A stretch of 64,000 nt of DNA from Denitromonas ohlonensis. Its GTDB lineage: Bacteria; Pseudomonadota; Gammaproteobacteria; Burkholderiales; Rhodocyclaceae. Positions within the stretch are counted from its first letter, which is position 1; each line of letters starts with the position of its first letter. The position numbers and the translations under genes are program-made. Under the pieces are notes generated by a model, which searched no databases, had not been told where the DNA came from, and saw only the letters and a list, made by a program, of their open reading frames with translations. Below are positions 13,938-34,119 of the stretch, one piece after another. The stretch covers positions 62,001-126,000 of the forward strand of contig NZ_VMNI01000004.1 in NCBI RefSeq assembly GCF_007625205.1, given 5' to 3'.

Positions 13938-14175
13938 CGTTGGCCGGGTCTCGCCCCGGCGGGCGACTCCCTTTCTTGCACGCGCAAGAAAGGAAGCAAA
14001 GAAAGCGCCCCACTGTGCCGCCGGCTTCGCCGGTGCCCTCTCTACGCCCGACGCCGGCGGGTCGTGTCGCAAACTCGCCCTGCTGGCTCAGACAGCGACA
14101 CGACAATTCCCGCCGTCCCCGGGCTCCGTTCGGCGGCACAGAAGGGGAGGGGCATGCGGGCTCGGCTTCGCCGTT
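13938..14175 (+). repeat. Long repeat module, copy A-left
   Basis: It begins with CGTTGGCCGGGT followed by CGCCCCGGCGGGCGAC, then a perfect hairpin at 13971-13992 (arms CTTTCTTGC and GCAAGAAAG, loop ACGC), then AAGCAAAGAAAGCG and CCCCACTGT. Further on come CGCAAACTCGCCCT and CGGCACAGAAGGGGAGG-like text, ending near CTCGGCTTCGCC. Copies A-right, B-left and B-right share the same order of blocks. Confidence 0.85.
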
Positions 14176-14199
14176 GCCCGCTCGGGCGGCGTAGCGTAG

Positions 14200-14259
14200 G
14201 GCGGGTTTCAACCCGCCGTAGGTACTCGTTCGCAAATCATTGGCGGATTTAAATCCGCC
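14200..14259. repeat. Pair of GGCGG-type palindromes (REP/BIME-like)
   Basis: Two related palindromes stand about 24 bp apart: GGCGGGTTTCAACCCGCC (14200-14217) and GGCGGATTTAAATCCGCC (14242-14259). The second is a perfect 18-bp palindrome. The spacer is AT-richer than the surroundings. Short palindromes of this kind are dispersed in many proteobacterial genomes; no REP-associated transposase gene is in the window. Confidence 0.8.
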
Positions 14260-14304
14260 CCACGAAACCCTCAATTTGCTTTGGCGTGGCCGGCTGGCAC
14301 CTCA

Positions 14305-14515
14305 TTCCCCTCTGTCGTGCCGAGCGCAGCAAGTGCGGGGCGGAAAAAGCGGCTTCGCTGTTTGAGTCCGAAGGGCGAGTTTGCGAAGTCGCCCGCCCCG
14401 TGCTTGCGGAGGGAGGGAAGCCCGAAGGGCCACGACAGTGGGGCGTGCTTCTTTGCTTACCTTTCTTGCACGAGCAAGAAAGTAAGTCGCCCGCCGGGGC
14501 GAAACCCGGCCAACG
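14305..14515 (-). repeat. Long repeat module, copy A-right (inverted)
   Basis: This is the reverse complement of the module: reading on the minus strand from 14515 it gives CGTTGGCCGGGTTTCGCCCC, the hairpin (14461-14482, arms CTTTCTTGC/GCAAGAAAG, loop differs by one base from copy A-left), AAGCAAAGAAGCACG, CCCCACTGT, and further on CGCAAACTCGCCCT and ACAGCGAAGCCGC. The outer boundary near 14305 is approximate. Confidence 0.85.
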
Positions 14516-14595
14516 TCCCCTTCCCGAAGCCACGCCCCGCGGAATCGGGCAAAGCGCACCCCAGCGCCGCCCGGATGCCGCAAGCCGCGTCGCGT

Positions 14596-15675
14596 CTACA
14601 GCAGGCCGATCGCCACCAGCCCGGCAAAGGCAAAGAACAGCGCCAGGTGGCTGACCCCTTCGATGGCGTTGGTTTCGCCATTGTGCAGGTTGTTCATGAC
14701 GGCGAGCATGGTCAGCAGCAGCATGCCGCCCTGCATCGGGGTCAGCGCCATGACGATGCGGTCGTCGGTGAGCAGGGCGATGCCCTCGATCACCGGCAAG
14801 GTCAGCAGCACCGTGGCGAGCGAGGCGCCGAGGGCGATGTTGACCGTGGTCTGCATGCGGTTGGCCGCGGCGGCGCGGGCGGCGGTGAGGATCTCCGGGC
14901 TGGCCGAGAGCAGGGCCACCAGCACGGCGGGCAGGCTCTTGGGCAGGTCGCTGCCGGCCAGGCCGGCGTCGAGCAGTACGGAGAGCACTTCGGACAGCAG
15001 GCCGACCAGGACGATGGCGCCAACCATGATCGCCACATGCAGCCACGAGGGGCTGTGCGCGGTGTCGTGGGCCTCTTCATCCACCGCGGCGACATGTTCG
15101 AAGAAGGTGCGGTGCTCGACGGTCTGCAGGCGCAGGAAGGCGGCGTACATCAGCACCATGGTGCCGACACTGAACAACGAATAGGCCTTCCAGTGTTCGT
15201 CGGGCACGAAGTCGGGGATGAACATGCCGATGCCGATGGCGACGATCAGCATGGCCATGAAGGAGTTGGCCGAGTCGAGGTTGTAGCGCGTGGTGCCGTG
15301 CTTGAGGCCGCCGATGATGGCGGCAATGCCCAGGATGCCGTTGATGTCGAGCATCAGCGCGGCGAACACGGTGTCGCGCGCCAGCGTGGGGTTGGGGGCG
15401 CCTTGCAGCAGCACGACGAGGATGACCACCTCGACCGACACCGCGGCGATGGTCAGAATCAGCGTGCCGTAGGGCTCGCCCCAGCGCACTGCCAGCACCT
15501 CGGCGTGGTGGCTGATGCGGAAGGCGACGCCGATGATGGCGGCGAGGATGAGTCCGAGCAATCCCCACAGCATGAAGCCACCGTGCTCGACGGCACCATG
15601 TTCGAGGGCGATGCCGATGGCGAGGACGGCGCCGGCAACAAAGATGGGGGTTTCGGCCTTGAGGGCGAGTCGCAT
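14596..15675 (-). CDS. chaA: ChaA-type calcium/sodium:proton antiporter
   Basis: 359 residues with about eleven membrane segments. The diagnostic ChaA stretches are present: AVRWGEPYGTLILTIAAVSV followed by EVVIL (first alpha repeat), DTVFAALMLDINGILGIAAI, and the second repeat PAVLVALLSASPEILTAARA with the acidic residue, then NIALGASLATVLLTLPVI. ChaA exchanges cytoplasmic Na+, Ca2+ or K+ for protons at the inner membrane. The gene stands alone between repeat island A (stop at 14596) and a divergent unknown gene. Confidence 0.9.
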   Translation of the reverse strand: MRLALKAETPIFVAGAVLAIGIALEHGAVEHGGFMLWGLLGLILAAIIGVAFRISHHAEVLAVRWGEPYGTLILTIAAVSVEVVILVVLLQGAPNPTLARDTVFAALMLDINGILGIAAIIGGLKHGTTRYNLDSANSFMAMLIVAIGIGMFIPDFVPDEHWKAYSLFSVGTMVLMYAAFLRLQTVEHRTFFEHVAAVDEEAHDTAHSPSWLHVAIMVGAIVLVGLLSEVLSVLLDAGLAGSDLPKSLPAVLVALLSASPEILTAARAAAANRMQTTVNIALGASLATVLLTLPVIEGIALLTDDRIVMALTPMQGGMLLLTMLAVMNNLHNGETNAIEGVSHLALFFAFAGLVAIGLL

Positions 15676-15934
15676 GGCAATGGGATGTCGGGCAGAAAGG
15701 AGTTCGATTGTGCCTTGCCACCGCGCATGAAACCACCCGCAACATGTGACGATTCGCGAATTCTCGGCCGGTGCGTGTTTTGTGCGCGGGCTGCGGTGGA
15801 GGGCATGTCGCTTAAAAAATCAAGACCCAATGCGAGGCCGAAGGCGACATCGGCGTCGCGGGGCAAAGCGCTGGTGGGTGGTTAAAATGCTGCGATGATG
15901 CCGGTTCGTGTCGGCGAGACGAGGAGAGTGGTTT

Positions 15935-16849
15935 GTGATTACGCGAGTGGTGTGTCGGGGAGACAAGATCGAGGCCGTGGGGCCGACGATCGAGATCGTG
16001 CTCAAGGAACTGGCGCGGCGCATTTGCGAGCGCGACAGCGCGCTGGATGGCGTGCTTGAGCAGATCGTGGTGGCCGATGACCTTCCCGCGGCGCTGGTGT
16101 CGCTGGGCGAAGCGCCCGCGCCGGCGGGGGCGATCGTGCCGACTGTCGCCCGCACGCTTTACCTCGATGCCGGCCCGGTGCTGGTGCTCGAAGGCGCGCA
16201 GGTGGTGGCGGCGCTGGGCAGTGAGGTGGATGCCATGGCGCGCTTTGTTCATTTGCTGCACGGCGAACTGTGGCGCGTGCGGCTGCATCTGGACGCACTG
16301 GCGGCAGGCCAGGCGGGCTTGGGCGCCTGGCGCGATTCGGTGTTCGACAGCCAGCTGCGGCCGGTGGTGGAGGCCATGCGCGGCGAGTACGCGGTGAGTC
16401 GGCGCACGGTCTGGTCCTTGCCCAACGATGCCGATCTGATGCTCAAGCATTTGCTCGATGTGATCGACGCCTTGCCGGCGGCCACGGCCGAGGACCTGGC
16501 GACCGGCGCTGCCGATCTGGATGGTCTGTTTGTGCGCAGCCTGGGGCGTATTGCGCATCTGCTGCAGACGGCGGCGCATGTGCAGGGCTATCTCGCCGGG
16601 CTGGTGCGGCCGGTGGCGTCCATCAGTCCCGAGATGGCGGCGGCGATCGAGGCGAGCTTTTTTGGCCCGCATTGGGTCGCGCTCGGGCGTCAGCTCGATG
16701 CGCTGTTCCATGCCAGCGCGCCGTCGGCGATCGAAGCGGCACGCAGCGAGATTCAGCACACGCTGCTGGCGGTGTTCGGCAGCCTAGGCCTGCAACTGCG
16801 CCGCGCCGAAGATGGCGGCGTGTGGCTGGCGCCGGGCGTGGCGGGCTAA
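15935..16849 (+). CDS. Predicted helical cytoplasmic protein, unknown function
   Basis: 304 residues. A GAGGAG at 15921-15926 with 8-base spacing supports the GTG at 15935; an upstream in-frame GTG at 15908 lacks a ribosome site. The sequence is Ala/Leu-rich and mostly helical (VLKELARRICERDSALDGVL, ALGSEVDAMARFVHLLHGEL, YAVSRRTVWSLPNDADLMLK). No signal peptide or membrane span is evident and I do not recognise a domain. The CorA-like helical feel is not backed by a GMN motif. It ends three bases before azlC, so it may be co-transcribed with azlCD, but a shared function is unproven. Confidence 0.72.
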   Translation: MITRVVCRGDKIEAVGPTIEIVLKELARRICERDSALDGVLEQIVVADDLPAALVSLGEAPAPAGAIVPTVARTLYLDAGPVLVLEGAQVVAALGSEVDAMARFVHLLHGELWRVRLHLDALAAGQAGLGAWRDSVFDSQLRPVVEAMRGEYAVSRRTVWSLPNDADLMLKHLLDVIDALPAATAEDLATGAADLDGLFVRSLGRIAHLLQTAAHVQGYLAGLVRPVASISPEMAAAIEASFFGPHWVALGRQLDALFHASAPSAIEAARSEIQHTLLAVFGSLGLQLRRAEDGGVWLAPGVAG

Positions 16850-16852
16850 GGC

Positions 16853-17557
16853 ATGAATCGCCGCTTTCTGGCCGGCGCCCGGTCCGGGTTCCGCATCTTT
16901 CTGCCGCTGTCGATCGGCCTGATTCCGTGGGCGTTGGTCACCGGCGTGGCGCTGACCTCGGCCGGGCTGAGCGTGGTCGAGGCCATGGGCATGAACCTGA
17001 TGGTCTATGCCGGCGTGGCCCAGATTGCCACCTTGCCGCTGATTGTGGCCGGGGCGCCGCTGTGGCTGATCGGGTTGACGGCGCTGGCGCTCAACCTGCG
17101 CTTTCTGATTTTCAGCGCCGCCATTGCCAAGGGTTTCCACGACGTGCCGCTCAAGCTCCGCATTCCGTCGGGCTATCTGCTGATCGACGGGGTGTTTGCG
17201 GTGTGTACCGAACGCATGCTGTCGGTGCGCGACCGGCATTGGCGCTTCGGCTATTTTCTGGGGCCGTCGCTGTGGGGCTGGGGCCTGTGGCAGTGCTTTG
17301 TGCTGACCGGTGTGCTGGGGGCGGGTGCCTTGCCGCAGGACTGGTCGCTGGAGTTCATGGCGACCATCGCGCTGATGGTGATTCTGGTGCCCTTGTCAAA
17401 GAACCGGGCCATGTTGGTGGCCGCGCTGGTGGGGGGCGTGTCTTCGGTGCTGTTGCGCGGCATGCCACTCAAGCTGGGCGTGATCGTGGCGATCGTGATC
17501 GGCATTATTGCCGGTTTTGTGGCCGGCCGAGTGCTGCCTGAGCGCAAGGAGGCATGA
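16853..17557 (+). CDS. azlC: AzlC family branched-chain amino acid exporter, large subunit
   Basis: 234 residues, several membrane helices. AzlC features: AGARSGFRIFLPLSIGLIPW, the region NLMVYAGVAQIATLPLIVAG, LTALALNLRFLIFSAAIAKG, and SGYLLIDGVFAVCTERM. With the small AzlD subunit it exports branched-chain amino acids or analogues such as azaleucine in characterised systems. The stop overlaps the azlD start by four bases, the standard azlCD arrangement. The upstream neighbour is the unknown helical protein. Confidence 0.9.
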   Translation: MNRRFLAGARSGFRIFLPLSIGLIPWALVTGVALTSAGLSVVEAMGMNLMVYAGVAQIATLPLIVAGAPLWLIGLTALALNLRFLIFSAAIAKGFHDVPLKLRIPSGYLLIDGVFAVCTERMLSVRDRHWRFGYFLGPSLWGWGLWQCFVLTGVLGAGALPQDWSLEFMATIALMVILVPLSKNRAMLVAALVGGVSSVLLRGMPLKLGVIVAIVIGIIAGFVAGRVLPERKEA

Positions 17558-17880
17558 TGGACGGTATCTGGTTGTGGATCAGTTTTGCCCTGGTGTCGAT
17601 GGCGACCCATCTCCCGCGCGGCAGTTTCATCGTGCTCGGGCAGCGGGCGAGCCTGCCGCCGGCGGTGCAGGGCGCGCTGCGCTATGCGCCGGCTGCGGCG
17701 CTGGCGGCAATCGTGGCACCCAGTGTTTTTGTGGTGGACGGCGCGGTGCAGCCCTTCAACCCCAAGTTCGCCGCGGCGGTGGTGGTATTGATGATCGCGC
17801 TGCGCTGGAAGAACCCGTGGTTGCCGTTCATCATCGGCATGGGCGTGCTGCTTGGCTTGCGCAAGGGGTTGGGGTTCTGA
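17554..17880 (+). CDS. azlD: AzlD family small exporter subunit
   Basis: 108 residues with about four short hydrophobic segments (WLWISFALVSMATHLPRGSF, ALRYAPAAALAAIVAPSVFV, AAAVVVLMIALRWKNPWLPF, GMGVLLGLRKGLGF). Size, position directly after azlC with ATGA overlap, and the ALRYAPAAALAAIVAP motif identify AzlD. It works as the obligate partner of AzlC in the inner membrane. Nothing like a terminator is obvious in the 143 bp before the frameshifted kinase. Confidence 0.88.
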   Translation: MMDGIWLWISFALVSMATHLPRGSFIVLGQRASLPPAVQGALRYAPAAALAAIVAPSVFVVDGAVQPFNPKFAAAVVVLMIALRWKNPWLPFIIGMGVLLGLRKGLGF

Positions 17881-18023
17881 GGCGCGCAGAGCTGCGACAC
17901 CTTGTCCGGGCCACCGCTTACGGCTCGTGAGCAGTGCCAATCGGCGCAACAATCGGGGCGAAGTTACCCTAACGTCGAGCGTCTAGGCTGGCGCATGTTC
18001 GCTGCCCAGAGGGGAGTCCGGCC

Positions 18024-19230
18024 ATGCAGTCCGCTACTCTGCCTGCCAACGAGGCTCATCGACGCTGGGCGCTACGCCAATACGATGTGCTCGATTCGGC
18101 GCGAGAGGCGCTGTTCGACGAGGTGACCTCGTTGGCTGCGTGTGTGCGAGGCGCCGATTGCGCTGATCTCTTTGATCGATACCTCGCAAGTGGTTCAAGG
18201 CCTGTGTGGGGCTGGAGGCCTTGGAGACGGCGCGTAGCGTTTCGTTTTGCGCGCACGCCATTCTCCAGCCGGGTGTTTTCATTGTTCCCGACACGCTGGC
18301 CGCCCCGCGTTTTGCTGACAACCCGCTGGTCATCAGGCCGCCGAATATCCGCTTCTATGCGGGGACGCCCTTGTTCACCGCCGAGGGCCATGGCCTCGGG
18401 ACCTTGTGCGTGATCGACACCAAGCCGCGCGAGCTCAGCGAGATGCAGAAAGATGCGCTGCAGTTGATGCGCAACCCTGCGCTCAGATTGTTTGACGTCC
18501 GCCTCAAGACGCGTGAGCTGGCGGAGCTCAACCAGGCGCTCGATGCCTACAGTTATGCCGTGTCGCACGACCTGCGGGCGCCGGTGCGCACGGTGGCGGG
18601 TTTCAGCCATTTGCTGCGTGTCGAGCACGGCGAAAAGTCGACGAAGACGGTCTCGAGCTGATCTCCGACGTGGAAGACGCGGCCAAGCGTATGGCGCGGC
18701 TGATTGATGATTTGCTGTATCTGTCGCGCGCCGTGCGCGCGCCGATCTCCAAGGCGTCAGTCAATTTGTCCGCGCTGGCGGATGAGTCCGTCGCGCGTTG
18801 CCGGCGCGACAATCTGGACTCGGCACTGACCGTGAGCACTCAGCCCGACATGCGCGTCCGGGGCGATCCGCGTCTGATCCGGCTGGCGCTCGACAACCTG
18901 ATCGGCAACGCCTGGAAGTTCAGCGCCAACGCGGGTACGCCGCGCATCGACATCGGCAGCGAAACCACCGGCGACGGCACGCGCTTTTTCGTCCGGGATA
19001 ACGGCGTGGGATTTGACATGCTTTACGCGGGCAAGCGGTTTGAGCCCTTCTCGCGGCTGCATTCGGCTGAGACCTATCCCGGCACGGGCATCGGATTGGT
19101 GACCGTGAAGCGGGTCATCGAGCGTCATGGTGGAAAGGTCTGGGTTGAGGCCGAGGTCCAGCGCGGCGCTTGTTTCTACGTCACCTTGCAGGTGGATTCG
19201 CCGCAAGAAGGCGGCGAACATGCGGATTAG
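18024..19230 (+). pseudogene. GAF-domain sensor histidine kinase, disrupted by three frameshifts
   Basis: Read across frames this is one kinase: LRQYDVLDSAREALFDEVTS, then VCEAPIALISLIDTS in another frame, then WFKACVGLEALETARSVSFC (GAF domain), the H-box YAVSHDLRAPVRTVAGFSHL, and after another shift VDEDGLELISDVEDAAKRMA and the HATPase boxes NLIGNAWKFSA and VRDNGVGFDM. Shifts lie near 18141, 18188 and 18638. The catalytic boxes themselves are intact, so decay looks recent, or the shifts are assembly errors; three in 1.2 kb, in a window otherwise free of them, favours a true pseudogene. The end overlaps the stop of the convergent PAS kinase gene by four bases. Confidence 0.85.
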
Positions 19231-21056
19231 TCCGCCGCTGGCGTGCGCTCGGCATCCGGCTGCTGGATGGGCAAGGTGACGTGAAAGGTCGTCCCTTCGC
19301 CGGGCGTGGAGTCGATGTCGATGCGGCCGTGGTGATTCTGAACGATACCGTAAGACAGTGACAGTCCCAGCCCGGTGCCCTTGCCGACCCCCTTGGTGGT
19401 GAAAAAAGGCTCGAAGATGCGCGCCTTGACGGCCTCCGGGATGCCGCAGCCGGTGTCGGCAATGCTGACCCGCACATGCTCGGCGTCGGGCTGCGAGGTG
19501 GTGATCGTGATGGTGCCCGGCGCTTCGATGGCATGGGCAGCATTGACCAGCAGGTTCATGAACACCTGGTTGAGCTGCGAGGGCATGCACTGAATGGCCG
19601 GGATCTCGGCGTAGTGGCGCGCCACGCTGGCCTTGTATTTGACCTCGTTGTTCACCACGTTCAGGGTGCTTTCGATACCCTTGACGATATTGGCCCACAC
19701 CCATTCCTGGGTTTGATCGGCATGCGAGAAGTCTTTCAGGTCGGCGACGATCTTGCGTACGCGTGAGGCGCCTTCCTCGCTCTCGCGCAGCAGCGCCGGC
19801 AGGTCTTCCTTGAGGAAATCAAAGTCGACTTCCTGCTTGAGCTTTTGCACGGCGAGCAGCGCGGGGTCGTCGGGCGCGCGACCCGCTTCGAGCGCCTCGA
19901 AGCTGTCGAACAGGCGAAGCAGATCATCGAGATAGCCGCCCAGGCTGGTGATGTTGGAGAGCACATAGCCGATCGGATTGTTGATTTCGTGCGCCACGCC
20001 AGCGGCGAGCTGACCGATGGAGGCCAGCTTTTCGGACTGCACGAGCTGTTCCTGCGCATCGTGAAGCTGGCAGTTGAGCTCGGTGAGTTCGATATAGCGC
20101 TTGAGTAGCTCCTGCTCGGCGGTCTCGCGCTGGTCGATGTCTTCGGCGAGCCGGGCATTGGCCTCGGCGAGCTCACGGGTGCGGTCCGCGACGATCGCTT
20201 CAAGGCGTTCGTTGGTCAGGGCCAACGCGTTTTCGGCGGTCTTGCGCTCGGTAATGTCTTGCAGGGTTTCGATGGCGCCGATGATGCTGCCGTCGGCGCC
20301 ACGCAGGGGCGCGGCCAGGAAGTAGATCCAGCGGCCGGATTCGCCGAGGCTGGGATAGAAGCCCTCGGCTTCGATTGCGTCGGGCGTGTGGGTCGAGCGC
20401 TGCCAGCTGCCGGGGTAGAGGCGTTCGAGCGTGTCGGCGTCGGCATGGTCGAGGATCATGTCAGCCATGACCGGGCGGGGGGCATCGAAGAAGGCGCGCC
20501 AGGGGTCGCGGGTGCCAATCAGGCGCGGGGCTGTGATGCCGGAAATGCGCTCGCAGGCCATATTCCAGTGAGTGACGCGATGCTCGGTGTCGAGGATGAA
20601 GGCGGCAATGGGCAGCTCGCGGATGATCTGATCGAGCACGGCGCGTGTCGATGGGTCGTGTGTCGGCGCGGCGTTGGTACGCTCGATGAAGACATGCAGC
20701 ACCTGCGGTCCGGCCGCGTCTTCGAGCCGGCGCGCGCGAACTTCAAAGTGGCGTACAGCACACGGGGGCTGGCCGGTGGTGATGTCAACCGGTGCCGCGT
20801 CGCGACCCGCCAGGCAGGCTTCGCCTTGCTGGCGCAGTCGCTCGGCGCTGTTGGCATCGTCGAGCGCATGAAAGGGACGGTCATACAAGGCAGAGAGCGT
20901 GCAGCCCAATTGCTCGGCCAGTGTGGCGTCGGCCCATACGGGGTGCTCGCCCCGGTGCAGCAAGGTGCCATGGCCGGCCAGCGCGAGGGCGTCGCACCAG
21001 AGCTCGGTCGGCGGCGATGGGCGGAGGGCGGCGACCCCGTCAGGCATCGGCTTCAA
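19227..21056 (-). CDS. PAS-domain sensor histidine kinase
   Basis: 609 residues, no membrane segment, hence cytoplasmic. There are two PAS-like regions (about 20-125 and 135-270; the second ends GAIETLQDITERKTAENALA), a coiled coil (about 272-345), and a HisKA/HATPase core of the NtrB-like class: EKLASIGQLAAGVAHEINNP with phospho-acceptor His about 356, N-box NLLVNAAHAI near 501, G1 DTGCGIPEAV near 534, and FFTTKGVGKGTGLGL. It is the last gene of a four-gene operon whose first two products have receiver domains and lack a kinase of their own, so it probably phosphorylates one or both. Start at 21056 overlaps the HDOD gene end by 17 bases. Confidence 0.9.
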   Translation of the reverse strand: MKPMPDGVAALRPSPPTELWCDALALAGHGTLLHRGEHPVWADATLAEQLGCTLSALYDRPFHALDDANSAERLRQQGEACLAGRDAAPVDITTGQPPCAVRHFEVRARRLEDAAGPQVLHVFIERTNAAPTHDPSTRAVLDQIIRELPIAAFILDTEHRVTHWNMACERISGITAPRLIGTRDPWRAFFDAPRPVMADMILDHADADTLERLYPGSWQRSTHTPDAIEAEGFYPSLGESGRWIYFLAAPLRGADGSIIGAIETLQDITERKTAENALALTNERLEAIVADRTRELAEANARLAEDIDQRETAEQELLKRYIELTELNCQLHDAQEQLVQSEKLASIGQLAAGVAHEINNPIGYVLSNITSLGGYLDDLLRLFDSFEALEAGRAPDDPALLAVQKLKQEVDFDFLKEDLPALLRESEEGASRVRKIVADLKDFSHADQTQEWVWANIVKGIESTLNVVNNEVKYKASVARHYAEIPAIQCMPSQLNQVFMNLLVNAAHAIEAPGTITITTSQPDAEHVRVSIADTGCGIPEAVKARIFEPFFTTKGVGKGTGLGLSLSYGIVQNHHGRIDIDSTPGEGTTFHVTLPIQQPDAERTPAAD

Positions 21057-21879: not shown

Positions 21880-21882
21880 GGC

Positions 21883-24164: not shown

Positions 24165-24168
24165 GTCG

Positions 24169-26134: not shown

Positions 26135-28843
26135 TCACGACCGTGCGGCGAGTCGCTTCAGCTCGGGCAGACAGGAGCCGCAGTTGGTGCCGCACCGGGT
26201 GCGTGTCTGCAGTTGTTCGAGGCTTTCGCCAGCATGGAAAGCGGTGACGATGGCCTCCTCCGACACATCAAAGCAGTTGCACACCACTTTGCCGCGCGCG
26301 GGCTGGCCGGCTGGCGGCTGGGTGAGCGGGGCGAGCAGCCAGGGGCGCACCGGGGCGGCGGGCTCGCCGCGCACCATCAGTTCGGTCAGCCACTCGGCGG
26401 CGCGGGTCTCGCCCGACAGTCGCACCGCATTGAGAATGTCGTCGTCGACCCGGGCGCGCTTGGCCACATCGCGGTGGGCATCGGCATACACCAGGGTGTG
26501 CGCCGGGTCGTCCAGGCCCATGGCGGCGTCGACCGCGTCGAGCAGCGCGGTGTCGGCTTCGTCGGCGCGTGCCTTGAGCACCACCACCGGCACCTCGCGC
26601 CCGGCCAGCGTCAGGCTGGCGTAGGGCAGATCCTTCATCTGCGCGCGCAGCGCTTCGAGCACGTCGAAGGCGCTGGTGTCGGTAATCCGGCGCATGGCCA
26701 TCAGCGCGTGGCCGGCGGCCAGTTTTTCGACCTGTATGGCGGCGTGCTTGAGTTCGGGTTGTTTCGAGGTTGGATCGGTGACGGACGGGGTCAGGGCGTT
26801 GATGCCCAGCGTGCCGGCCATGGTGTTGCCGCCCCAGTGCATGGGCAAAAAGCTCTGGCCCTGGCGGACGGTGTCGCTGGCGATGACCTTGAGCACCACG
26901 GCACCCTGACGGGAGCGCACGCGCACGATGTCGCCGTCGGCCAGATCGCGCCGCGCCAGATCCTCGGCGTGCATGTGCAGCTGCGGTTCGGGTTCATGGT
27001 TGTACAAGCGTGGCACGAGACCGGTGCGGGTCATGCTGTGCCACTGGTCGCGCAGGCGGCCGGTGATCAGGTGAAGCGGGTAGCGCGCGCTCGGGCTCTC
27101 GGCAGTGACCACGTAGTCGGTGGCGACAAAGCGCGCCTTGCCGGAGGGCGTGGGGAACACGCCGTCTTCATACAGGCGCACCCGGCCGGCGGTGGCGCCG
27201 TCGGGGAAGGGCCATTGCTGCGGGCCGTCGGCGTCGAGTTTGGCGTAGCTCAGGCCGGTGATGTCCAGATCGCGCCCGCGGGTGCTTTCGCGGTGCTCCT
27301 GCCAGACCGCTTCCACCGAGTCGAAGCCGAACTGGGCATAGGCCTGCGCGCCCTTGCCGATGCGCGGGCCGAGGCGGTGGGCGAAGTCGCAGGCGATCTC
27401 CCAGTCGTGCCGGGCCTCGCCGATCGGCGGCACGGCGGCGTGGGTGCGGCTGATGCGGCGCTCGGAGTTGGTGACCGTGCCGTCCTTTTCGCCCCAGCCG
27501 CTCGCTGGCAGCAGCACGTCGGCGTAGGCCGCGGTTTCGGTGTGGCGGTAGGTGTCTTGCACCACCACCAGTTCGGCGGCTTCGAGCGCGGCGTGGACCA
27601 TGGCCTGGTCGGGCAAGGACTGGGCCGGGTTGGTGGCAGCAATCCACACGGCCTTGATCTCGCCGTTCTTCAGCGCTTCGAAGAGTTCAACCGCCGGTTT
27701 GCCCGGTGCCGACGGCACTTCGGGCACACCCCACAGGCGCGCCACTTCGGCGCGGTGGGCGGGGTCACTCATGTCGCGATGGCCGGACATCAGGTTGGCC
27801 AGGGCACCGACTTCGCGCCCGCCCATGGCGTTGGGCTGGCCGGTGAGCGAGAAGGGGCCGGCGCCGGGGCGGCCGATCTGGCCGGTGGCCAGGTGCAGGT
27901 TGATCAGTGCGGCGTTCTTGTGGGTGCCCGAGGCGTACTGATTGAGGCCCTGGCAGTACATCGACAGCGTGGCCGGGCGGGTGGCAAACCATTCCGCCGC
28001 CTGTTCGATGTCCCGCTTGGGCACGCCGCACACGGCCGCGGCCATGGCCGGGGTGTATTCGCGCACCAGACGCTTGAGCGCGTCGAAGCCTTCGGTGTGC
28101 TCGGCGATGTAGTCGCGGTTGAGCCAGCCCTCCCACAGCATGACGTGGAGCATGGCGTTGAACAGCGCGATGTCGGTGCCCGGCAAAATCGGCAGGTGCA
28201 GGTCGGCGGCTTCGGCGGTGTCGGTGCGGCGCGGGTCGACCACCACCAGTTTCATGTCCGGATTGGCCTCGCGCGCGGCCTCGATGCGCCGGAACACGAT
28301 GGGGTGGGCAAAGGCGGTGTTGGAGCCGGCGATGAACAGGCAATCGGTGGCGTCGATGTCGGTGTAGCTGCACGGCGGGGCGTCCGCGCCCAGGCTCAGC
28401 TTGTAGCCGGCCACTGCGCTGGACATGCACAGGCGCGAGTTGGTGTCGAGGTTGTTGGTGCCGATCAGGCCTTTGGCCAGCTTATTGAAGACGTAGTAGT
28501 CCTCGGTCAGCCATTGGCCGGAGCCGTAGAAGGCGACGGCGTCGGGGCCGTGTTCCCGAATGATCGCGGCAAAGCGGTCGGCGACATGATCGAGCGCGGT
28601 GGCCCAGTCGGTGGGCTGGCGCGTGGCGCTGCGGTCGGTGCGCAGCTCGGGTGTGTGCGCGCGTTGCGAGCGGGTGTCGGCGGCGACCGTCAGGTGCAGC
28701 GTGGCGCCCTTGGTGCACAGCCGGCCGAAGTTGGCCGGGTGGTCGGGGTCGCCGCGCACGCCGGTGATCTGGCCGGCATCGTGTTCGACGATGAGGCCGC
28801 AGCCGACGCCGCAGTAACAGCAGGTGGATTTCGTCTCGGACAT
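26135..28843 (-). CDS. nasA: Assimilatory nitrate reductase, catalytic subunit with C-terminal [2Fe-2S] domain
   Basis: 902 residues. It reduces nitrate to nitrite in the cytoplasm for nitrogen assimilation. The N-terminal [4Fe-4S] cysteines are in STCCYCGVGCGLI and GRLCTKGATL; Mo-bis-MGD domains follow (YGSGQWLTEDYYVFNKLAKG, NTNSRLCMSSAVAGYKLSLG with the Mo-ligand Cys region, TGQPNAMGGREVGALANLMS), and the C-terminal beta-barrel (HLITGRLRDQWHSMTRTG). The last about 55 residues form a BFD-type [2Fe-2S] module (VCNCFDVSEE and RCGTNCGSCLPELKRL), found in NasA but not NapA. There is no signal peptide. No nirB/nirD or nitrate transporter is adjacent. A sigma-54 promoter lies just upstream and AAGGAG precedes the ATG. 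Confidence 0.95.
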   Translation of the reverse strand: MSETKSTCCYCGVGCGLIVEHDAGQITGVRGDPDHPANFGRLCTKGATLHLTVAADTRSQRAHTPELRTDRSATRQPTDWATALDHVADRFAAIIREHGPDAVAFYGSGQWLTEDYYVFNKLAKGLIGTNNLDTNSRLCMSSAVAGYKLSLGADAPPCSYTDIDATDCLFIAGSNTAFAHPIVFRRIEAAREANPDMKLVVVDPRRTDTAEAADLHLPILPGTDIALFNAMLHVMLWEGWLNRDYIAEHTEGFDALKRLVREYTPAMAAAVCGVPKRDIEQAAEWFATRPATLSMYCQGLNQYASGTHKNAALINLHLATGQIGRPGAGPFSLTGQPNAMGGREVGALANLMSGHRDMSDPAHRAEVARLWGVPEVPSAPGKPAVELFEALKNGEIKAVWIAATNPAQSLPDQAMVHAALEAAELVVVQDTYRHTETAAYADVLLPASGWGEKDGTVTNSERRISRTHAAVPPIGEARHDWEIACDFAHRLGPRIGKGAQAYAQFGFDSVEAVWQEHRESTRGRDLDITGLSYAKLDADGPQQWPFPDGATAGRVRLYEDGVFPTPSGKARFVATDYVVTAESPSARYPLHLITGRLRDQWHSMTRTGLVPRLYNHEPEPQLHMHAEDLARRDLADGDIVRVRSRQGAVVLKVIASDTVRQGQSFLPMHWGGNTMAGTLGINALTPSVTDPTSKQPELKHAAIQVEKLAAGHALMAMRRITDTSAFDVLEALRAQMKDLPYASLTLAGREVPVVVLKARADEADTALLDAVDAAMGLDDPAHTLVYADAHRDVAKRARVDDDILNAVRLSGETRAAEWLTELMVRGEPAAPVRPWLLAPLTQPPAGQPARGKVVCNCFDVSEEAIVTAFHAGESLEQLQTRTRCGTNCGSCLPELKRLAARS

Positions 28844-28866
28844 TGAATCTCCTTTGTCCGGACAGT

Positions 28867-28882
28867 AGCAACCGCCATGCCA
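28867..28882 (-). promoter_or_regulatory. Sigma-54 (-24/-12) promoter of nasA
   Basis: Read on the minus strand the site is TGGCATGGCGGTTGCT, a full match to the consensus TGGCAY-R-N4-TTGCW with the right GG-GC spacing. The predicted start is near 28857, only about 14 bases before the nasA ATG, leaving room for the ribosome site AAGGAG. Control by NtrC under nitrogen limitation is what this family of promoters usually means for nitrate assimilation. Confidence 0.82.
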
Positions 28883-28932
28883 TGCCCCGAATAAGGGCTT
28901 GGCTTAAATTTGCTCTGAATCAAGATTGCAAA

Positions 28933-28960
28933 TGGTGCGGCGCGCAAAACGCCCGCACCA
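28933..28960. repeat. Inverted repeat between ybiB and nasA
   Basis: Arms TGGTGCG and CGCACCA pair perfectly around a 14-base interior that can itself pair further (GGCG/CGCC type). It is 10 bp past the ybiB stop and about 50 bp upstream of the nasA -24 element. It may be the ybiB terminator (no T run follows) or supply half-sites for an enhancer protein; the half-site order is opposite to the usual NtrC site. Confidence 0.45.
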
Positions 28961-28970
28961 GTTTGGGGCG

Positions 28971-29891
28971 TCAGTCGCCGTGCGCGAGCCGGATCAGGGC
29001 GTCCACCTGGGTGCGGATCGGTGCCGGCACCGGCGTGGTGCCGTCGAGCATGGCGCGGATCAGTTGCGCATTGCCGGCGACATCGGGCAGGTCGGGCACC
29101 TGTGGGTTGGGCGGCGCGCCGCCGCCTTCGCCTTCCATCGTCTCGGCCGCGCCGGTGCCCTTGTAGAGCGCCATGGTCGGGCGGCGTCGCGGGTTGGCGT
29201 AGCCCTCGCCTTCGGTGCCGCGCATCAGCATCGCGCAGCCGCCGTCGACTTGCAGGAACTCGTCCATCCGCACCAGATACTCGGGGTGGGTCACCGCCAC
29301 CACGCGTACGCTGCGCCCCGGCATCGGGTCGAGCAGCTTGGCCAGCGTGTGGCCGCTGTTGCGCACGCCCAGGCGCGGGCGCAGGGCGAGCAGGCGGTCG
29401 AGGCCGGGTAGCAGCGCCTCGAGCGAGAGCGCGGCAATCTTGTGTGAGCCCAGCGCGGCGCTGGCGGCCGCGGCGTCGGCGCGCAGCGGGACGTCGAGCG
29501 CGGCGAGCAGGTCGAAGGGGCTGACCCGGCTGTCGAAGTCATGCCGGCCCTGAATCAGCACCGGCACGCCCTCGCGCGCCAGCAGCAGCGCGACCAGCGG
29601 CATCAGGTTCGGCTGTCGACGGGCGCCGTTGTAGCTGGGCAGCAGCACGCAGCGCGGGCCGTCGGGTAGCGTGAGCGTTGCGTTGCGGGCGTCCATGGCG
29701 CGCTTGAAGCCGACCAGCTCGTCGAGCGATTCGCTCTTGATGCGCAGCGACAATATGATCGCGCCCAGTTCCAGATCGGGCACGCGGCCGTCGAGCATGT
29801 CGCCAAACAGGCTGGCGGCCTGGTCGACGGTGAGCGGCTTGGCGCCTTTGGCGCCGCGGCCGATTTCCTTGATAAACGGGGCGTAGGTCAT
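28971..29891 (-). CDS. ybiB: YbiB/TrpD2-family DNA-binding protein
   Basis: 306 residues related to anthranilate phosphoribosyltransferase. An N-terminal helical domain (PLTVDQAASLFGDMLDGRVP, ELGAIILSLRIKSESLDELV) precedes a glycosyltransferase-like fold (LPSYNGARRQPNLMPLVALL, GVPVLIQGRHDFDSRVSPFD, RLGVRNSGHTLAKLLDPM, LMRGTEGEGYANPRRRP). In E. coli YbiB (TrpD2) binds nucleic acid without sequence preference and is LexA-linked, and lacks TrpD activity. It is commonly encoded beside assimilatory nitrite/nitrate reductase genes in betaproteobacteria. It is divergent from a COG0523 GTPase, with a short hairpin (GTGGCCG/CGGCCAC, 29927-29944) between them. Confidence 0.9.
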   Translation of the reverse strand: MTYAPFIKEIGRGAKGAKPLTVDQAASLFGDMLDGRVPDLELGAIILSLRIKSESLDELVGFKRAMDARNATLTLPDGPRCVLLPSYNGARRQPNLMPLVALLLAREGVPVLIQGRHDFDSRVSPFDLLAALDVPLRADAAAASAALGSHKIAALSLEALLPGLDRLLALRPRLGVRNSGHTLAKLLDPMPGRSVRVVAVTHPEYLVRMDEFLQVDGGCAMLMRGTEGEGYANPRRRPTMALYKGTGAAETMEGEGGGAPPNPQVPDLPDVAGNAQLIRAMLDGTTPVPAPIRTQVDALIRLAHGD

Positions 29892-29962
29892 GGCGCGGAT
29901 TATGGCAGGCTTCCGGGTGGCCGGCGACGGCCACGCATCGTGATTATGACCAGGATCAAACC

Positions 29963-31045
29963 ATGACTGACACTGACCGCCGGATTCCGGTGACCGTGCT
30001 GACCGGCTTTCTCGGCGCCGGCAAAACCACCGTACTCAACCACCTGCTGCGCCACCCCGGCGCCGAGCGGGTGGCGGTGCTGATCAACGAGTTGGGCGAT
30101 GTCGGCGTCGATCACCATCTGGTCGAGCAGGTCGATGAAACCCTGATCGTGCTCGACGGCGGCTGCGTGTGCTGCAGCGTGCAGGGCGATCTGGTGGCGG
30201 CGCTCAAGCGCTTGTTCATGCAGGCATTCCGCAAGGAGATCCCGCCCATCGACCGCGTGCTGCTCGAAACCACCGGCCTGGCCGATCCGGCGCCGGTCAT
30301 CCACACGCTGATGGAAGAACCCTTCATCGCCGACCGCTACCGTTGCGACGGCGTGGTCACCGCCGTCGACGTGACCCACGCCGCCGGCCAACTCAAGGCA
30401 CACCGCGAAGCCATGCGCCAGGTGGCGATGGCCGACCGCCTGCTGCTCACCAAGTGCGACCTCGCCGCGCCGGCCGATATTGCCGCGTTGCAAACGACGC
30501 TCGCCACGCTCAACCCCGGCGCGCGGCAGATTCCGGTGTCGCAAGGCGTGGTCTCGGTCGATGCCTTGTTTGGCTGCGGCTTGTACACCGCCACCGGCAA
30601 GCTGCCCGAAGTCGCCGACTGGCTGGGCGAGGCGCAGGTCCGTGCCGCCGCCGCGGCGGTGCCATCGTGGCGCAAGCCCGGCAAAGCGGCGCCGACCGGC
30701 CCGGTGACGTATCACACCGACGGCGTCGAAAGCTATGTGCTGCGCTTCGACGCGCCCCTGCCGTGGTGGGAGTTTTCCGATGGGCTGAACCTGATCCTGC
30801 AGGCCTATAGCAACCGCATCCTGCGGATCAAGGGCGTGCTCAATGTGCGCGGCGATCCGCTGCCGCGCGTCATCCAGTGCGTGCAACACAGCATCTACCC
30901 CGCGGTCAGCCTGCCGGCCTGGCCCGACACCCCCCCCTTTGACGATCGCTGCAGCCGGCTGGTGTTCATCGTGCGTGGCCTGCCGAGCGAGACCGTGATG
31001 CAGACCTTGAGCGAATTCACCGGCGTGGGCGTCAGCGTGCTGTAA
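29963..31045 (+). CDS. CobW/COG0523 family GTPase (metal chaperone type)
   Basis: 360 residues. It has P-loop [20 protein letters not shown], the metal-binding [11 protein letters not shown] (CxCC), Walker B-like [20 protein letters not shown], guanine specificity TKCD, and a C-terminal CobW_C domain ([40 protein letters not shown]). COG0523 GTPases insert or deliver Zn, Co or Ni ions or support metal homeostasis; the metal here is not determined. The sequence between this gene and ybiB shows no clear Zur box. It stands as a single gene followed by 68 bp before the dehydrogenase pair. Confidence 0.92.
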
Positions 31046-31113
31046 CGTCCCCTGACCAATCGACGGGCCCGCACGCGTAGAATCGACGGATCGGATCTGC
31101 TCGGAGTGCGTGC

Positions 31114-31983
31114 ATGAACATCGGTTTTATCGGTCTGGGCCTGATGGGACGGCCCATGGTGCTCAATCTGCGCAAGGCCGGTTTCCCGGTCAGCGTGTGG
31201 GCGCGGCGCGAGGCCTCGCTGGCGGCGGTGACGGCGGCGGGCGCGGTGGCGCGGGCGAGTATCGCCGAGGTGGCGGCGGCGTCGGACGTGGTGTTCTCCT
31301 GCGTGCCGGATGCGCCACAGGTGGCTGAGGTGGCACAGGCGGTGGCCGACGGCGCGCATGACGGCCTGGTGTTTGCCGACATGAGCACCATCGCCCCGGC
31401 GGCGGCGCGCGATATCGCCGCGCAACTCAAGTCGCGCGGCGTGAGCATGCTCGATGCGCCGGTCTCGGGCGGCGAGACCGGTGCCATTGCCGGCACGCTG
31501 ACCATCATGGTTGGTGGTGAGCAAGCCGCGTTTGACACCGCTTTGCCGGCCTTTCAGGCCATGGGAAAAAGCGTCACGCGGGTGGGCGAGTCGGGCGCCG
31601 GTCAGGTGACCAAGGCCTGCAACCAGATCGTCACCGGCGTGGGTGTGGCTGCCGTGGCCGAAGCCTTCAACTTTGCGCAGATGAGTGGGGTCGATCCCGC
31701 CCGTGTGCGCGAGGCGCTGCTCGGCGGTTTTGCCAACAGCCGCATCCTCGACAACCACGGTCAGCGCATGATCGACCGAAAATTCACCCCCGGTTTCAAG
31801 GCCTGGATGCACCAGAAAGACCTGCGCATCGTCATGGAAGAAGCGCATGCGCACGGCCTTGCCTTGCCTGCCGCCGCGGCCACGGCGCAGCTCTTCAATG
31901 CGCTGGTCGGCCGTGGCATGGGCGAGGACGACTCGGTCGCCATGCTCAAGCTGTTTGAGGCGATGAGCGGAGGCGCGGCATGA
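31114..31983 (+). CDS. NAD(P)-dependent beta-hydroxyacid dehydrogenase, copy 1 (GlxR/GarR-like)
   Basis: 289 residues. Rossmann motif MNIGFIGLGLMGRPMVLNLR, substrate loop LDAPVSGGETGAIAGTLTIM, catalytic Lys in GAGQVTKACNQIVTGVG, and a C-terminal helical domain (KFTPGFKAWMHQKDLRIVME) identify the 3-hydroxyisobutyrate/tartronate semialdehyde reductase superfamily. A tartronate semialdehyde reductase role would fit the distant hyi gene, but substrate specificity cannot be read from the sequence. It overlaps the start of a second, paralogous dehydrogenase by four bases. Confidence 0.9.
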   Translation: MNIGFIGLGLMGRPMVLNLRKAGFPVSVWARREASLAAVTAAGAVARASIAEVAAASDVVFSCVPDAPQVAEVAQAVADGAHDGLVFADMSTIAPAAARDIAAQLKSRGVSMLDAPVSGGETGAIAGTLTIMVGGEQAAFDTALPAFQAMGKSVTRVGESGAGQVTKACNQIVTGVGVAAVAEAFNFAQMSGVDPARVREALLGGFANSRILDNHGQRMIDRKFTPGFKAWMHQKDLRIVMEEAHAHGLALPAAAATAQLFNALVGRGMGEDDSVAMLKLFEAMSGGAA

Positions 31984-32870
31984 AGATCGGCTTTATTGGT
32001 TTGGGCGATATGGGCCAGTCGATGGCCCGCCACCTCATCGGTGCGGGGCATGAGCTGGCGGTTTGGGCGCGGCGTGAAGCGTCGGCGTCTGCGCTGCTTG
32101 CCGAGGGCGCCGCCTGGTGCGCGTCACCTGCCGAACTGGCCGCGCGCAGCGAGTTGGTGATCACTATGGTCGGCGGCAGCGCCGATGTGGACGATCTGGT
32201 CTTGCGCAGCGATGGCCTGCTCGCCGGCTTTGCCGCCGGCGCAGCGCATGTCGACATGAGCACCATCGCGCCGGCGACCGCCCGGCAACTCGCCGCCCGC
32301 TACGCCGAGCGCGGTATCGACTGGCTGGATGCGCCGGTCTCCGGCGGGCCCAAAGGCGCGCTCGAGGCGACGCTGGCGATCATGGTCGGCGGCGACGCGG
32401 CCACGCTGGCGCGGCTGCAGCCGGTGCTGGCGGTGCTGGGCAGTCGCATCGTGCACATCGGCGAGGCCGGTGCCGGTCAGGTGGCCAAGGCCTGCAATCA
32501 GATGATCATGGTCGCCGCGATTGAAGCGAGCGCCGAAGCCCTGCACCTGGCCGCCGCCAACGGCGTCGATGTGGCCAAGGTGCGCACCGCCCTGATGGGC
32601 GGCTCGGCGGGTTCGCGGGTGCTCGAGGTGATGGGCGAGCGCATGGTCACCGGCGATTTCGACAAAGGCGTCGACGCCCGGCTGCACCACAAGGATTTCG
32701 GCCTCATCATGGCCGACGCCCATGCCCTCGGCGCACCGCTGCCCATCGCCGCCGCCGTCGGACAACAGCTCAATGCCCTGATGGCCCGCGGCGGCGCCCG
32801 GCAAGACACCGCCGCGCTGATCACCGTGCTCGACGCCATGGCACCGCAGGACAGGAGGACGACCGAATGA
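31980..32870 (+). CDS. NAD(P)-dependent beta-hydroxyacid dehydrogenase, copy 2
   Basis: 296 residues with the same motifs as its neighbour: MKIGFIGLGDMGQSMARHLI, LDAPVSGGPKGALEATLAIM, catalytic Lys in GAGQVAKACNQMIMVAAIEA, and GDFDKGVDARLHHKDFGLIM. The two are clearly paralogous along their whole length but well diverged, so the duplication is old or one copy was acquired. ATGA overlaps on both sides place it in an operon with copy 1 and the LEA-14-like protein. Confidence 0.9.
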   Translation: MKIGFIGLGDMGQSMARHLIGAGHELAVWARREASASALLAEGAAWCASPAELAARSELVITMVGGSADVDDLVLRSDGLLAGFAAGAAHVDMSTIAPATARQLAARYAERGIDWLDAPVSGGPKGALEATLAIMVGGDAATLARLQPVLAVLGSRIVHIGEAGAGQVAKACNQMIMVAAIEASAEALHLAAANGVDVAKVRTALMGGSAGSRVLEVMGERMVTGDFDKGVDARLHHKDFGLIMADAHALGAPLPIAAAVGQQLNALMARGGARQDTAALITVLDAMAPQDRRTTE

Positions 32871-33358
32871 AGCCCATCACTCGCCGCACCGCACTCGTCG
32901 CATTGGCCACCCTCGGCCTGGCCGCCTGCGCCAGCTTGCCGCTCAATATGAAACCGCCCGAAGTCTCGGTGTCGGATTTGCGCCTGATCGATGTCGGCCT
33001 GCTCGAGCAGCGCTTCGGCCTCAGCCTGCGGGTGCTCAACCCCAACGACGCCGAGATCCCGGTCGATGGCCTGAGCTTCACCGTTGAACTCAACGGCAAA
33101 CCCTTCGCCAAGGGCGTCAGCAACCAGACCGTCACCGTGCCGCGGCTGAGCGAAGCGATGCTGGAGGTGGAGGCCGTCAGTTCGCTCTCCGGCCTGCTGC
33201 GCCAGTTCGGCGCCATGGCCAAGGGGCAGGAGCGCATTGACTACCGGATTCACGGCACGCTTTACACCGGTGGGCTGTTCGGCGGCGTGCCCTTCGACCA
33301 GAAGGGCGAGGTGGATTTTGCGGATCTGGGGGTGCCGGCGGGGACGAGTCGGTTCTGA
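32867..33358 (+). CDS. LEA type 2 (WHy domain) family lipoprotein
   Basis: 163 residues. The N-terminus is TRRTALVALATLGLAACASL, a lipoprotein signal with lipobox LAAC. A WHy/LEA-14 immunoglobulin-like domain follows (VSVSDLRLIDVGLLEQRFGL, SLRVLNPNDAEIPVDGLSFT, VELNGKPFAKGVSNQTVTVP, a final GEVDFADLGV). Bacterial members are small periplasmic lipoproteins of unknown function, sometimes linked with desiccation or stress. It is coupled by ATGA to the second dehydrogenase; the functional link is unclear. Confidence 0.87.
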   Translation: MKPITRRTALVALATLGLAACASLPLNMKPPEVSVSDLRLIDVGLLEQRFGLSLRVLNPNDAEIPVDGLSFTVELNGKPFAKGVSNQTVTVPRLSEAMLEVEAVSSLSGLLRQFGAMAKGQERIDYRIHGTLYTGGLFGGVPFDQKGEVDFADLGVPAGTSRF

Positions 33359-33603
33359 TGTTGCTGCCGCGTAAGCGCAAGAGTCACCTGCCCGTGAGCG
33401 TCATGGTTACCGTGGTTTTCGTTGGTGTGATAGCACTGCTCTTTTTGGCTTCATATCTACTTAAGGAGGTGCCGAGCGAGGCCGCTGCGTGCGTGTCGCG
33501 ATGTGCCGCCGAGAATCGTGCTGGCCGATTGGTGGATAACTACGCCGCTAGTCAAACGGCGGGGATGCGAGGGCGAGGAACGTCACGGTGTGAGTGCTAC
33601 TGA
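33358..33603 (+). CDS. Small single-span membrane protein, unknown
   Basis: 81 residues beginning on the last base of the preceding stop codon. A basic start (MLLPRKRKSHLP) precedes one membrane span (VSVMVTVVFVGVIALLFLAS) and a short Cys-containing tail (ACVSRCAAEN, RCECY). The GC content is lower than that of the upstream genes and the coding signal fades in the last third, which runs into repeat island B. It may be real or partly eroded; no family is recognised. Confidence 0.45.
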   Translation: MLLPRKRKSHLPVSVMVTVVFVGVIALLFLASYLLKEVPSEAAACVSRCAAENRAGRLVDNYAASQTAGMRGRGTSRCECY

Positions 33604-33629
33604 CTCGGGGTTTGCGGATTGCGGCGGTT

Positions 33630-33775
33630 CGTTGGCCGGGTCTCGCCCCGGCGGGCGAGTGACTTCTTTGTCGCGACAAAGAAGTCACCAAGAAAACGCC
33701 CCCGCTGTACCGCCGGCTTCGTTCGGCGGTACAGAAGGGGAGAGGCCCGCGGGCTCGGCTTCGCCATCGCCTTCT
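33630..33775 (+). repeat. Long repeat module, copy B-left (short form, altered hairpin)
   Basis: It starts CGTTGGCCGGGTCTCGCCCC like copy A-left. The hairpin that follows (33659-33688) is a perfect 30-bp palindrome with arm GTGACTTCTTTGTCG, so the stem sequence differs from the other copies on both arms while pairing is complete. The central block present in A-left (about 90 bp) is missing; its edges fuse to give another inverted repeat, GTACCGCCG and CGGCGGTAC. The shared text resumes with ACAGAAGGGGAG and CGGGCTCGGCTTCGCC. Confidence 0.85.
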
Positions 33776-33850
33776 TTGAGAGGCCACGGTGCTACGCCGC
33801 AGGGTTAGCGGCTTGCCGCCCACCATCGTGCCTCACGACAAACGCCGCTT

Positions 33851-33873
33851 GGTGGGCAGCAAAGCTGACCACC
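33851..33873. repeat. Stem-loop between the island B modules
   Basis: Arms GGTGGGCAGC and GCTGACCACC pair at 9 of 10 positions around AAA. It is followed by CCTACGCCCCC, so read on the minus strand it gives GTAGGGTGG, like the TAGGGCGG next to the island A palindromes. It may be a relative of the same short palindromic repeat class. Confidence 0.6.
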
Positions 33874-33934
33874 CTACGCCCCCAATGGTCGAGTCGGGTG
33901 CGATCGATCCGCCCTCTGCCGCGCCAACCGGAGG

Positions 33935-34119
33935 ATGTGCCGGGCGGAAAAAGGGGCTTCGCTGTTTGAGCCCGCAGGGCGAGTTCGCGAAGCACCCCGC
34001 CCGGGGCGTCCGGAGGGCGGGAACCCCGCAGGGGCGCGAAAGCGGGCTGTGCTTCTTTGCCTAGCTTTCTTGCACAAGCAAGAAAGTAGGTCGCCCGCCG
34101 GGGCGAAACCCGGCCAACG
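33935..34119 (-). repeat. Long repeat module, copy B-right (inverted)
   Basis: On the minus strand from 34119 it reads CGTTGGCCGGGTTTCGCCCC, then the hairpin at 34065-34086 (arms CTTTCTTGC/GCAAGAAAG, loop differing from both island A copies), GCAAAGAAGCACAG and, further on, CGCGAACTCGCCCTGCGG and CAAACAGCGAAGCCCC. The outer boundary is approximate. Confidence 0.85.

Follow-up and report, generated by a model that had tools for sequence, protein, structure and literature searches.

Among intergenic repeats described in bacteria, bacterial interspersed mosaic elements (BIMEs) have been proposed to be non-autonomous elements, and a GTAG-type head is listed among those of repetitive extragenic palindromic (REP) sequences, according to the portion of the source available to us (PMC2817692). 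The R178 repeat of Pseudomonas fluorescens is, in the accessible part of its description, a 101-bp intergenic sequence with an internal 11-bp inverted repeat and 9–28 copies (PMC2718517). Here, we analyzed a 64,000-nucleotide stretch of the Denitromonas ohlonensis genome (NZ_VMNI01000004.1, positions 62,001–126,000; hereafter the window) that carries four long inverted modules in two islands. These repeats are members of an apparently unnamed family of folded intergenic DNA modules. Such modules often face each other in pairs, some of them around foreign-looking genes, and the pairs may be sites at which small gene cargo is swapped between bacteria.

Four modules in two islands and their wider family

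The first-pass annotation had reported four copies of a module, two facing each other in each of islands A and B; all four are real, being evident in the sequence and placed by a covariance model built from 36 diverse modules. Island A comprises a type A module with its head outward to the left (13938–14178, + strand; model match 13940–14148, 188.7 bits) and a type B module with its head outward to the right (14305–14515, − strand; match 14305–14513, 206.4 bits). Island B comprises an internally deleted type A module (33630–33771, + strand; match 33632–33741, 104.8 bits) and a type B module (33909–34119, − strand; match 33909–34117, 197.5 bits). The four copies share the head CGTTGGCCGGGTYTCGCCCCGGCGGGCGA and carry the hairpins described, including one at 13970–13993 (CCTTTCTTGC/GCAAGAAAGG) and one of 15 bp with another stem sequence at 33659–33688. 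Three points need correction: the right copy of island B begins near 33909 rather than 33935, the copy at 33630 is missing ~100 nt of the central arm, and many modules have 20–60 bp more in common further outward. The smaller stem-loops reported between facing copies are also present, at 14179–14304 in island A and 33772–33908 in island B, and resemble REP hairpins with a GTAG-type head.

With island B as the query, BLAST returned at least 88 matches in the D. ohlonensis genome, many of them short, overlapping or confined to the REP part; of 82 first-look candidates, 40 were scored. Because of these matches and of model E-values down to about 1e-50, the observation of four copies is beyond chance. 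The stretches read contain at least 11 type A modules (~245 bp) and at least 11 type B modules (~210 bp) at 13 places, far more than the four copies first seen; eight of the 13 places hold A and B facing with heads outward, and many interiors are filled by REP-like hairpins.

The covariance model gave 163 matches in 83 sequence sources. In a survey of the class, with eight candidates scored per genome under strict filters, modules were detected in 73 of 274 sampled genomes and 64 of 222 genera, the D. ohlonensis genome included, and six genomes had 4–38 matches each. Among the matches listed, the exact head pattern occurs in Denitromonas, Zoogloea, Hydrogenophaga, Rhodoferax, Comamonas, Polaromonas, Cognatazoarcus and others. 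The heads read are of the CGTTGGCC, GAAGCC or ATTGCC type, and the cap motif AACT(C/T) was recognized by eye in 17 of 19 distant matches. A strongly conserved fold of 210–245 nt is thus present in these 73 genomes, yet Rfam gave no match in the window at the gathering score, and a permissive search (E up to 5) of a 1901-base stretch with three modules gave chance-level matches only. With one B module as the blastn query, by which a more distant module would be missed, the only hit among 72,556 plasmid records was to a 2.48-Mb Variovorax replicon, and 50,697 phage records gave none. We met no description of the module family in the part of the open-access literature searched, and an account elsewhere is possible; the head strings were absent from the text searched, and the hairpin and linker strings appeared solely in animal papers.

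A conserved fold with a pseudoknot and a mirror linker

In the fold, hairpin H1 (loop of ~6 bases) is followed by hairpin H2. Next come the purine linker and the strand that forms the pseudoknot, then a long closing stem, a side hairpin and a long arm bearing the cap AACTCG-stem-CTCARACA. In the left module of island A, H2 (CCTTTCTTGC ACGC GCAAGAAAGG; 13970–13993, + strand) corresponds to helix 2 of the model and precedes, at 13997–14008 (+), the linker CAAAGAA and the pseudoknot strand GCGC, which is complementary to the H2 loop. In the type A copy of island B, the H2 hairpin at 33659–33688 (+) precedes the linker CAAGAAA (33689–33695, +), which matches its different stem CTTCTTT.

The first-pass annotation had taken the paired change of stem sequence as a sign that structure is kept, and covariation bears this out. 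In a sequence-only alignment (A1), 43 of 60 pairs changed on both sides, with a covariation score of 0.356 (0.135 shuffled, at most 0.158 slid) and 83.7% of cells paired (68.6% shuffled). An alignment of 148 distinct rows fitted to the model (A2) raised these values to 53 of 59 pairs, a score of 0.395 (0.119 shuffled, at most 0.081 slid) and 88.5% (67.7% shuffled, 43–49% slid). A third, also fitted and with distant genera added (A3), gave 55 of 59 pairs, 0.489 (0.129 shuffled, at most 0.087 slid) and 87.7% (62.7% shuffled). For H2, 11 of 13 pairs carried changes on both sides across relatives. The structure was hand-drawn on one sequence with the cap stem taken from another, so that the slide control is somewhat favorable to it, and three odd modules were left out of the starting alignment. 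Conservation of the fold is strongly supported.

This fold is larger than a single hairpin. The H2 loop is complementary to the strand downstream of the linker (GTACG/CGTAC, TCGCC/GGCGA, GCAGCC/GGCTGC, GGCGACC/GGTCGCC and others); the mean longest match over 76 unique combinations was 4.41 against 3.29 permuted, a value reached in none of 5000 permutations, although in some combinations just 2 or 3 bases match. The linker, in turn, is a mirror of the H2 3′ arm, i.e., a parallel complement of the 5′ arm, as in the 5′ arm/linker combinations CTTTCTT/CAAAGAA, CTTCTTT/CAAGAAA, CTTTTCTTT/CAAAAGAAA and CTTTCTCTT/CAAAGAGAA. In a loop-anchored count, made without a permutation control, 273 of the 288 modules that could be assessed fit this mirror rule and 15 failed; the other 45 of the 333 pooled modules had no pyrimidine or purine run of five. 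Among the fits, 254 have an asymmetric core and fall into 12 sequence classes, and the 19 modules that a direct copy fits all fit the mirror too. An earlier count, in which the pattern overran the arm, gave 167 of 235. When the longest run was scored in 95 cases, the mirror was longer in 61, the direct copy in 13, and 21 were ties, with a mean mirror run of 6.28 against 5.37 permuted (none of 2000 permutations). The H2 5′ arm is pyrimidine-rich in nearly all modules read. In triplex geometry, a purine third strand antiparallel to the purine arm would yield the mirror rule.

Scarce wobble pairs favor a role as DNA

RNA helices are commonly rich in G-U pairs. In A3, G-U and A-C combinations occupied 1.9% and 3.1% of module cells, compared with 11.7% and 1.9% in 30 6S RNAs of the class. 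The G-U/A-C ratio was 0.62 for the module in A3, 1.37 in the well-paired columns of A3 and 1.06 in A1 under RNAalifold's own structure, against 6.2 and 5.0 for 6S RNA; this comparison has a single control family, a fitted A3 and well-paired cut-offs that differ (0.85 and 0.75). Within these limits, the wobble excess expected of structured RNA was not clear on either module strand in A3 or A1. Under RNA parameters, the opposite strand was the more stable one (RNAalifold −39.5 versus −25.5). The rarity of G-U pairs favors a DNA-level role, and the module likely acts as DNA; the mirror rule and the scarce wobble together make such a role directly testable.

We weighed this against the idea that the pair is a structured RNA read through from flanking genes, serving as a bidirectional terminator, a processing or stability signal, or a small RNA. 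Its complex fold with a pseudoknot and a conserved AACTC/CTCARACA motif would suit an RNA, as would the strand asymmetry of the pyrimidine-rich H2 5′ arm and the absence of divergent gene gaps among 30 places (14 convergent and 16 co-directional). These features have to be set against G-U pairs about sixfold rarer than in the 6S control with no clear excess over A-C on either strand, a linker whose relation to H2 resembles that of the third strand in a purine-motif DNA triplex, and the lack of an Rfam match, which leave an RNA role rather unlikely.

Scarce wobbles would also arise by templated repair, and the modules might be neutral remnants of an ancient non-autonomous transposon, either REP-like or a miniature inverted-repeat transposable element (MITE), with covariation produced by template-switch repair of imperfect palindromes. 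The modules are indeed intergenic and dispersed, and internally deleted copies and fused-head scars exist. Template switching, however, yields inverted and not mirror repeats, while 273 of 288 modules follow the mirror rule in 12 asymmetric classes; moreover, distant genera also have paired modules (partner at 11 of 19 loci) and the capped arm (17 of 19 by eye). Such a neutral origin is improbable.

Facing pairs at shared chromosomal places

Among adjacent modules no more than 400 bp apart, 65 were arranged heads-out, 15 in the same direction and 4 tails-out; these loci are partly redundant (e.g., L074/L079 and L042/L072) and hence not independent, and the overlapping D. ohlonensis loci L001–L030 were left out of the count. 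One genome (G016) had 14 heads-out pairs among 33 matches and another (G036) had 8 among 20. At the 19 loci of distant genera, a partner was found at 11, and every one of these 11 formed a heads-out pair. The facing layout reported for the two islands thus recurs in the D. ohlonensis genome, in relatives and in distant genera, and frequent paired use of the module family is well supported.

Other arrangements were also seen. Locus L168 of Cognatazoarcus halotolerans (about 1500–3500) holds five same-direction modules or partial modules, several of them ~380 bp apart. L271 (G008:C1:594500-600000) holds two tandem pairs (+ − + −), the second partner of each having a divergent head. In three Burkholderiales contigs (L101, L104 and L179), a pair lies between the same two genes, presumably urtD and urtE of a urea transporter.

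At the 30 places for which flanking gene orientation was read, 14 gaps were convergent, 16 co-directional and none divergent; the window at large, with genes from a rough gene caller, has 5 convergent, 38 co-directional and 6 divergent gaps. For 12 of the 13 D. ohlonensis places, three or all four of the relatives compared have modules at the corresponding position, with flanks 79–99% identical; because places in relatives were selected for carrying modules, genuinely empty ones are under-represented in this count. This sharing of places gave no support to active transposition within the genus. For 107 complete modules starting no later than model position 4, the nearest neighbor was at the orthologous place in another species for 64, within its own genome for 16 and at some other location for 27. 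Because orthologous neighbors prevail, inheritance within the genus looks mainly vertical, with some exchange.

Differences between species nevertheless accompany this sharing of places. In G005 and G009, the island B pair is inverted relative to its flanks compared with D. ohlonensis and G001, and at C4 the pair is inverted in G006 compared with G001, G005 and G009. C28 and C38 hold modules of different type in different species, and place X202 has only REP hairpins in D. ohlonensis and G005, with a pair in G001. Near the counterpart of C32, G005 keeps an apparent scar of two fused heads. The interval between the right module of island B and the next gene (window positions 34120–34634) is ~500 bp in D. 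ohlonensis with a small reading frame at 34166–34642, and the matching gap is shorter than 100 bp in G005 and G009. A recent duplication of island A into island B was considered and discarded, as both places exist separately in related species. The outcome that the first-pass annotation gave as refuting its proposal, namely only four copies lacking covariation and explained by such a duplication, is excluded by the larger copy number, the covariation and these separate shared places.

AT-rich cargo between module tails

Most pairs read now hold just REP-like hairpins or short spacers. At two places, C2 and C31, all five species have a gene enclosed by the module tails (10 of 10 interiors). These interiors span 0.8–1.9 kb with a G+C content of 0.43–0.57, versus 0.66 in the window. 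Within each slot, blastn aligned the interiors of the five species only over stretches of up to 208 bp at the borders, and some of these border sequences are found in both slots. No cross match among the ten main proteins was detected by blastp at E 0.01; the outer flanks of both slots are 87–95% identical. The cargo includes a TIR protein (Pfam TIR_2; PADLOC TIR-TM, E 1e-60), two HNH-type proteins and one PDDEXK-like protein, and the D. ohlonensis cargo includes a protein that matches putAbiC below threshold (E 0.059). Five of the ten proteins had no family at the default cut-off in either library. At C22, the interiors are partly common to species, and in G006 a type II methylase lies beside a gene of no assigned family.

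AT-rich interiors also occur in other genera (G015, G026 and G010). Those of L281, L288 and L291 have G+C contents of 0.44, 0.36 and 0.45, versus 0.56, 0.46 and 0.58 for their loci, and interior G+C was below exterior in 9 of 9 interiors (one bearing an insertion sequence, two from one locus). PADLOC matched 4 of the 10 proteins encoded in the C2 and C31 interiors, 4 of 10 from other cargo, three of which share an interior, and 1 of 10 controls. The interiors at L135:514-1036 and L189:527-1087 resemble degenerate short tandem coding-like repeats, unlike REP interiors. At L036:2755-4287 (place C28 of D. ohlonensis), an IS3-type insertion with two transposase frames, recognized by eye, lies inside and splits the module pair. 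The D. ohlonensis C31 gene is sporadic, occurring in 10 of 249 genomes of the family, its own included. A search for a cargo gene travelling with the modules, made with homologues of this gene and a distance of 1.5 kb, yielded none.

Such cargo might be incidental, with the pairs sitting at gene ends where insertions do little harm and foreign genes gathering by ordinary means. The lack of any pair between divergent genes among 30 places would agree with this, and so would the IS3-type insertion in the C28 pair and the cargo homologues found elsewhere with no modules nearby. It would less readily account for a gene placed between both tails in all ten interiors of C2 and C31 across five species, or for AT-rich interiors that recur in G015, G026, L281, L288 and L291; we regard it as distinctly improbable.

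A module pair as the proposed bracket of a cargo slot

The reading that best joins these facts, although function remains inference, is that a DNA-folded module pair is the bracket of a non-autonomous, chromosomally resident element whose interior is inverted or exchanged; we put its probability at about 0.45. The fold would work at the DNA level, in single strands laid bare during replication or recombination, where the linker would act as a purine third strand on H2. Two modules would bracket an interior, either a REP cluster or a captured gene. A putative recombination enzyme could invert or exchange this interior, or homologous recombination could do so by way of the module and border sequences that are shared. 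A more ambitious version holds that this is a widespread family of DNA elements in which one strand folds into a three-stranded pseudoknot, made of a hairpin, a purine third strand that mirrors its arm and a strand that docks on the loop. Facing pairs would then be fixed chromosomal slots exchanging small AT-rich, often defense-like genes, a cassette system unlike both integrons and transposons and served by an enzyme of its own; that version we consider unlikely.

Several observations weigh against the bracket reading. Inversion between facing repeats is equally expected of ordinary homologous recombination, and the genes between modules could have entered by unrelated means. Single modules stand at C25, C32 and C38, and same-direction arrays exist besides facing pairs. 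Modules lie within 1.5 kb of homologues of the D. ohlonensis C31 gene at none of 10 other loci, and defense-like annotation, while frequent in cargo, is not proven to be enriched. No transposase or recombinase was tied to the family in a search that covered Y1 and no other enzyme families. The Y1 transposase (PF01797) had no match in 17 of the 73 module genomes, and its association with modules is weak (56 of 73 versus 130 of 201 other genomes, p 0.079), although incomplete assemblies or later transposase loss could affect these counts. At two places compared with module-free relatives, where the sites are remodelled, neither a target duplication nor a clean empty site was found; C32 was rejected as an empty-site test on account of rearranged neighboring genes. 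Directly observed exchange, an enzyme and an empty site are thus missing from the case. On the structural side, alignments A2 and A3 were fitted to the structure, and in the longest-run count the direct copy beat the mirror in 13 of 95 cases and tied in 21, because long purine runs permit both.

The first-pass annotation had likened the layout to a non-autonomous mobile or structural element. Its structural half stands, given the conserved structure and recurring layout, whereas mobility was not borne out: copies in the genus look mostly vertical, and no target-site duplication, clean empty site or dedicated transposase was found. If the bracket reading is true, it describes a new route of gene exchange, and facing pairs are recognizable addresses for finding incoming genes, including candidate defense genes; if it is wrong, the mirror-plus-pseudoknot constraint still calls for explanation.

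Comparison with known systems

Like MITEs and enterobacterial RU/ERIC-type repeats, the modules are short, non-coding, dispersed and probably non-autonomous; they differ in that no target duplication was found, the fold is kept across many genera and some pairs hold cargo. Recombinase-in-trio (RIT) elements likewise have inverted ends around a mobile unit, but are defined by three recombinase genes. The omega RNA of IscB, or HEARO, is a long structured RNA linked to mobile elements that also stands alone; the modules depart from it in that the permissive Rfam search, which covered one 1901-base stretch, gave no match. A search for RRXRR (IscB) found it in none of 12 genomes and equally in none of 14 control genomes, so that the control was silent. 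Integron attC sites recombine in the form of folded single-stranded DNA and delimit gene cargo that can be exchanged; here, by contrast, two facing modules bracket one interior and the pairs are scattered through the chromosome.

R178 of P. fluorescens, compared with the module, together with R200, by description only, is also intergenic with an internal inverted repeat, as far as the accessible part of its report goes (PMC2718517). REP/BIME repeats, in the available portion of their source, share with the module an intergenic location, palindromes, inverted pairs and many copies (PMC2817692), and REP-like hairpins fill many module interiors. The module differs in its length of 210–245 bp, its pseudoknot and mirror linker, its number of matches (4–38 per genome in six genomes), and its head, which is not GTAG; the GTAG hairpins are separate elements inside the pair rather than module heads. 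The two Y1 genes of D. ohlonensis are flanked by other GTAG-headed REP families and not by modules. They lie at L070 (G000:C1:22912-26175) and L071 (G000:C39:224344-227646), with REP families beginning GTAGGGTGCAATA and GTAGGTTGGGTTGAGC. On the absence of a GTAG head, of Y1 from 17 of 73 genomes and of modules around the Y1 genes, a REP mobilized by a REP-associated tyrosine transposase (RAYT) was set aside as the leading explanation. Of the features that define REP/BIME repeats, those tested do not hold for the module family, because its heads are not of the GTAG type and 17 of 73 module genomes have no detectable Y1. The closest kinds are REP/BIME repeats and, as regards the proposed mode of action, sites that recombine as folded single strands, such as attC.

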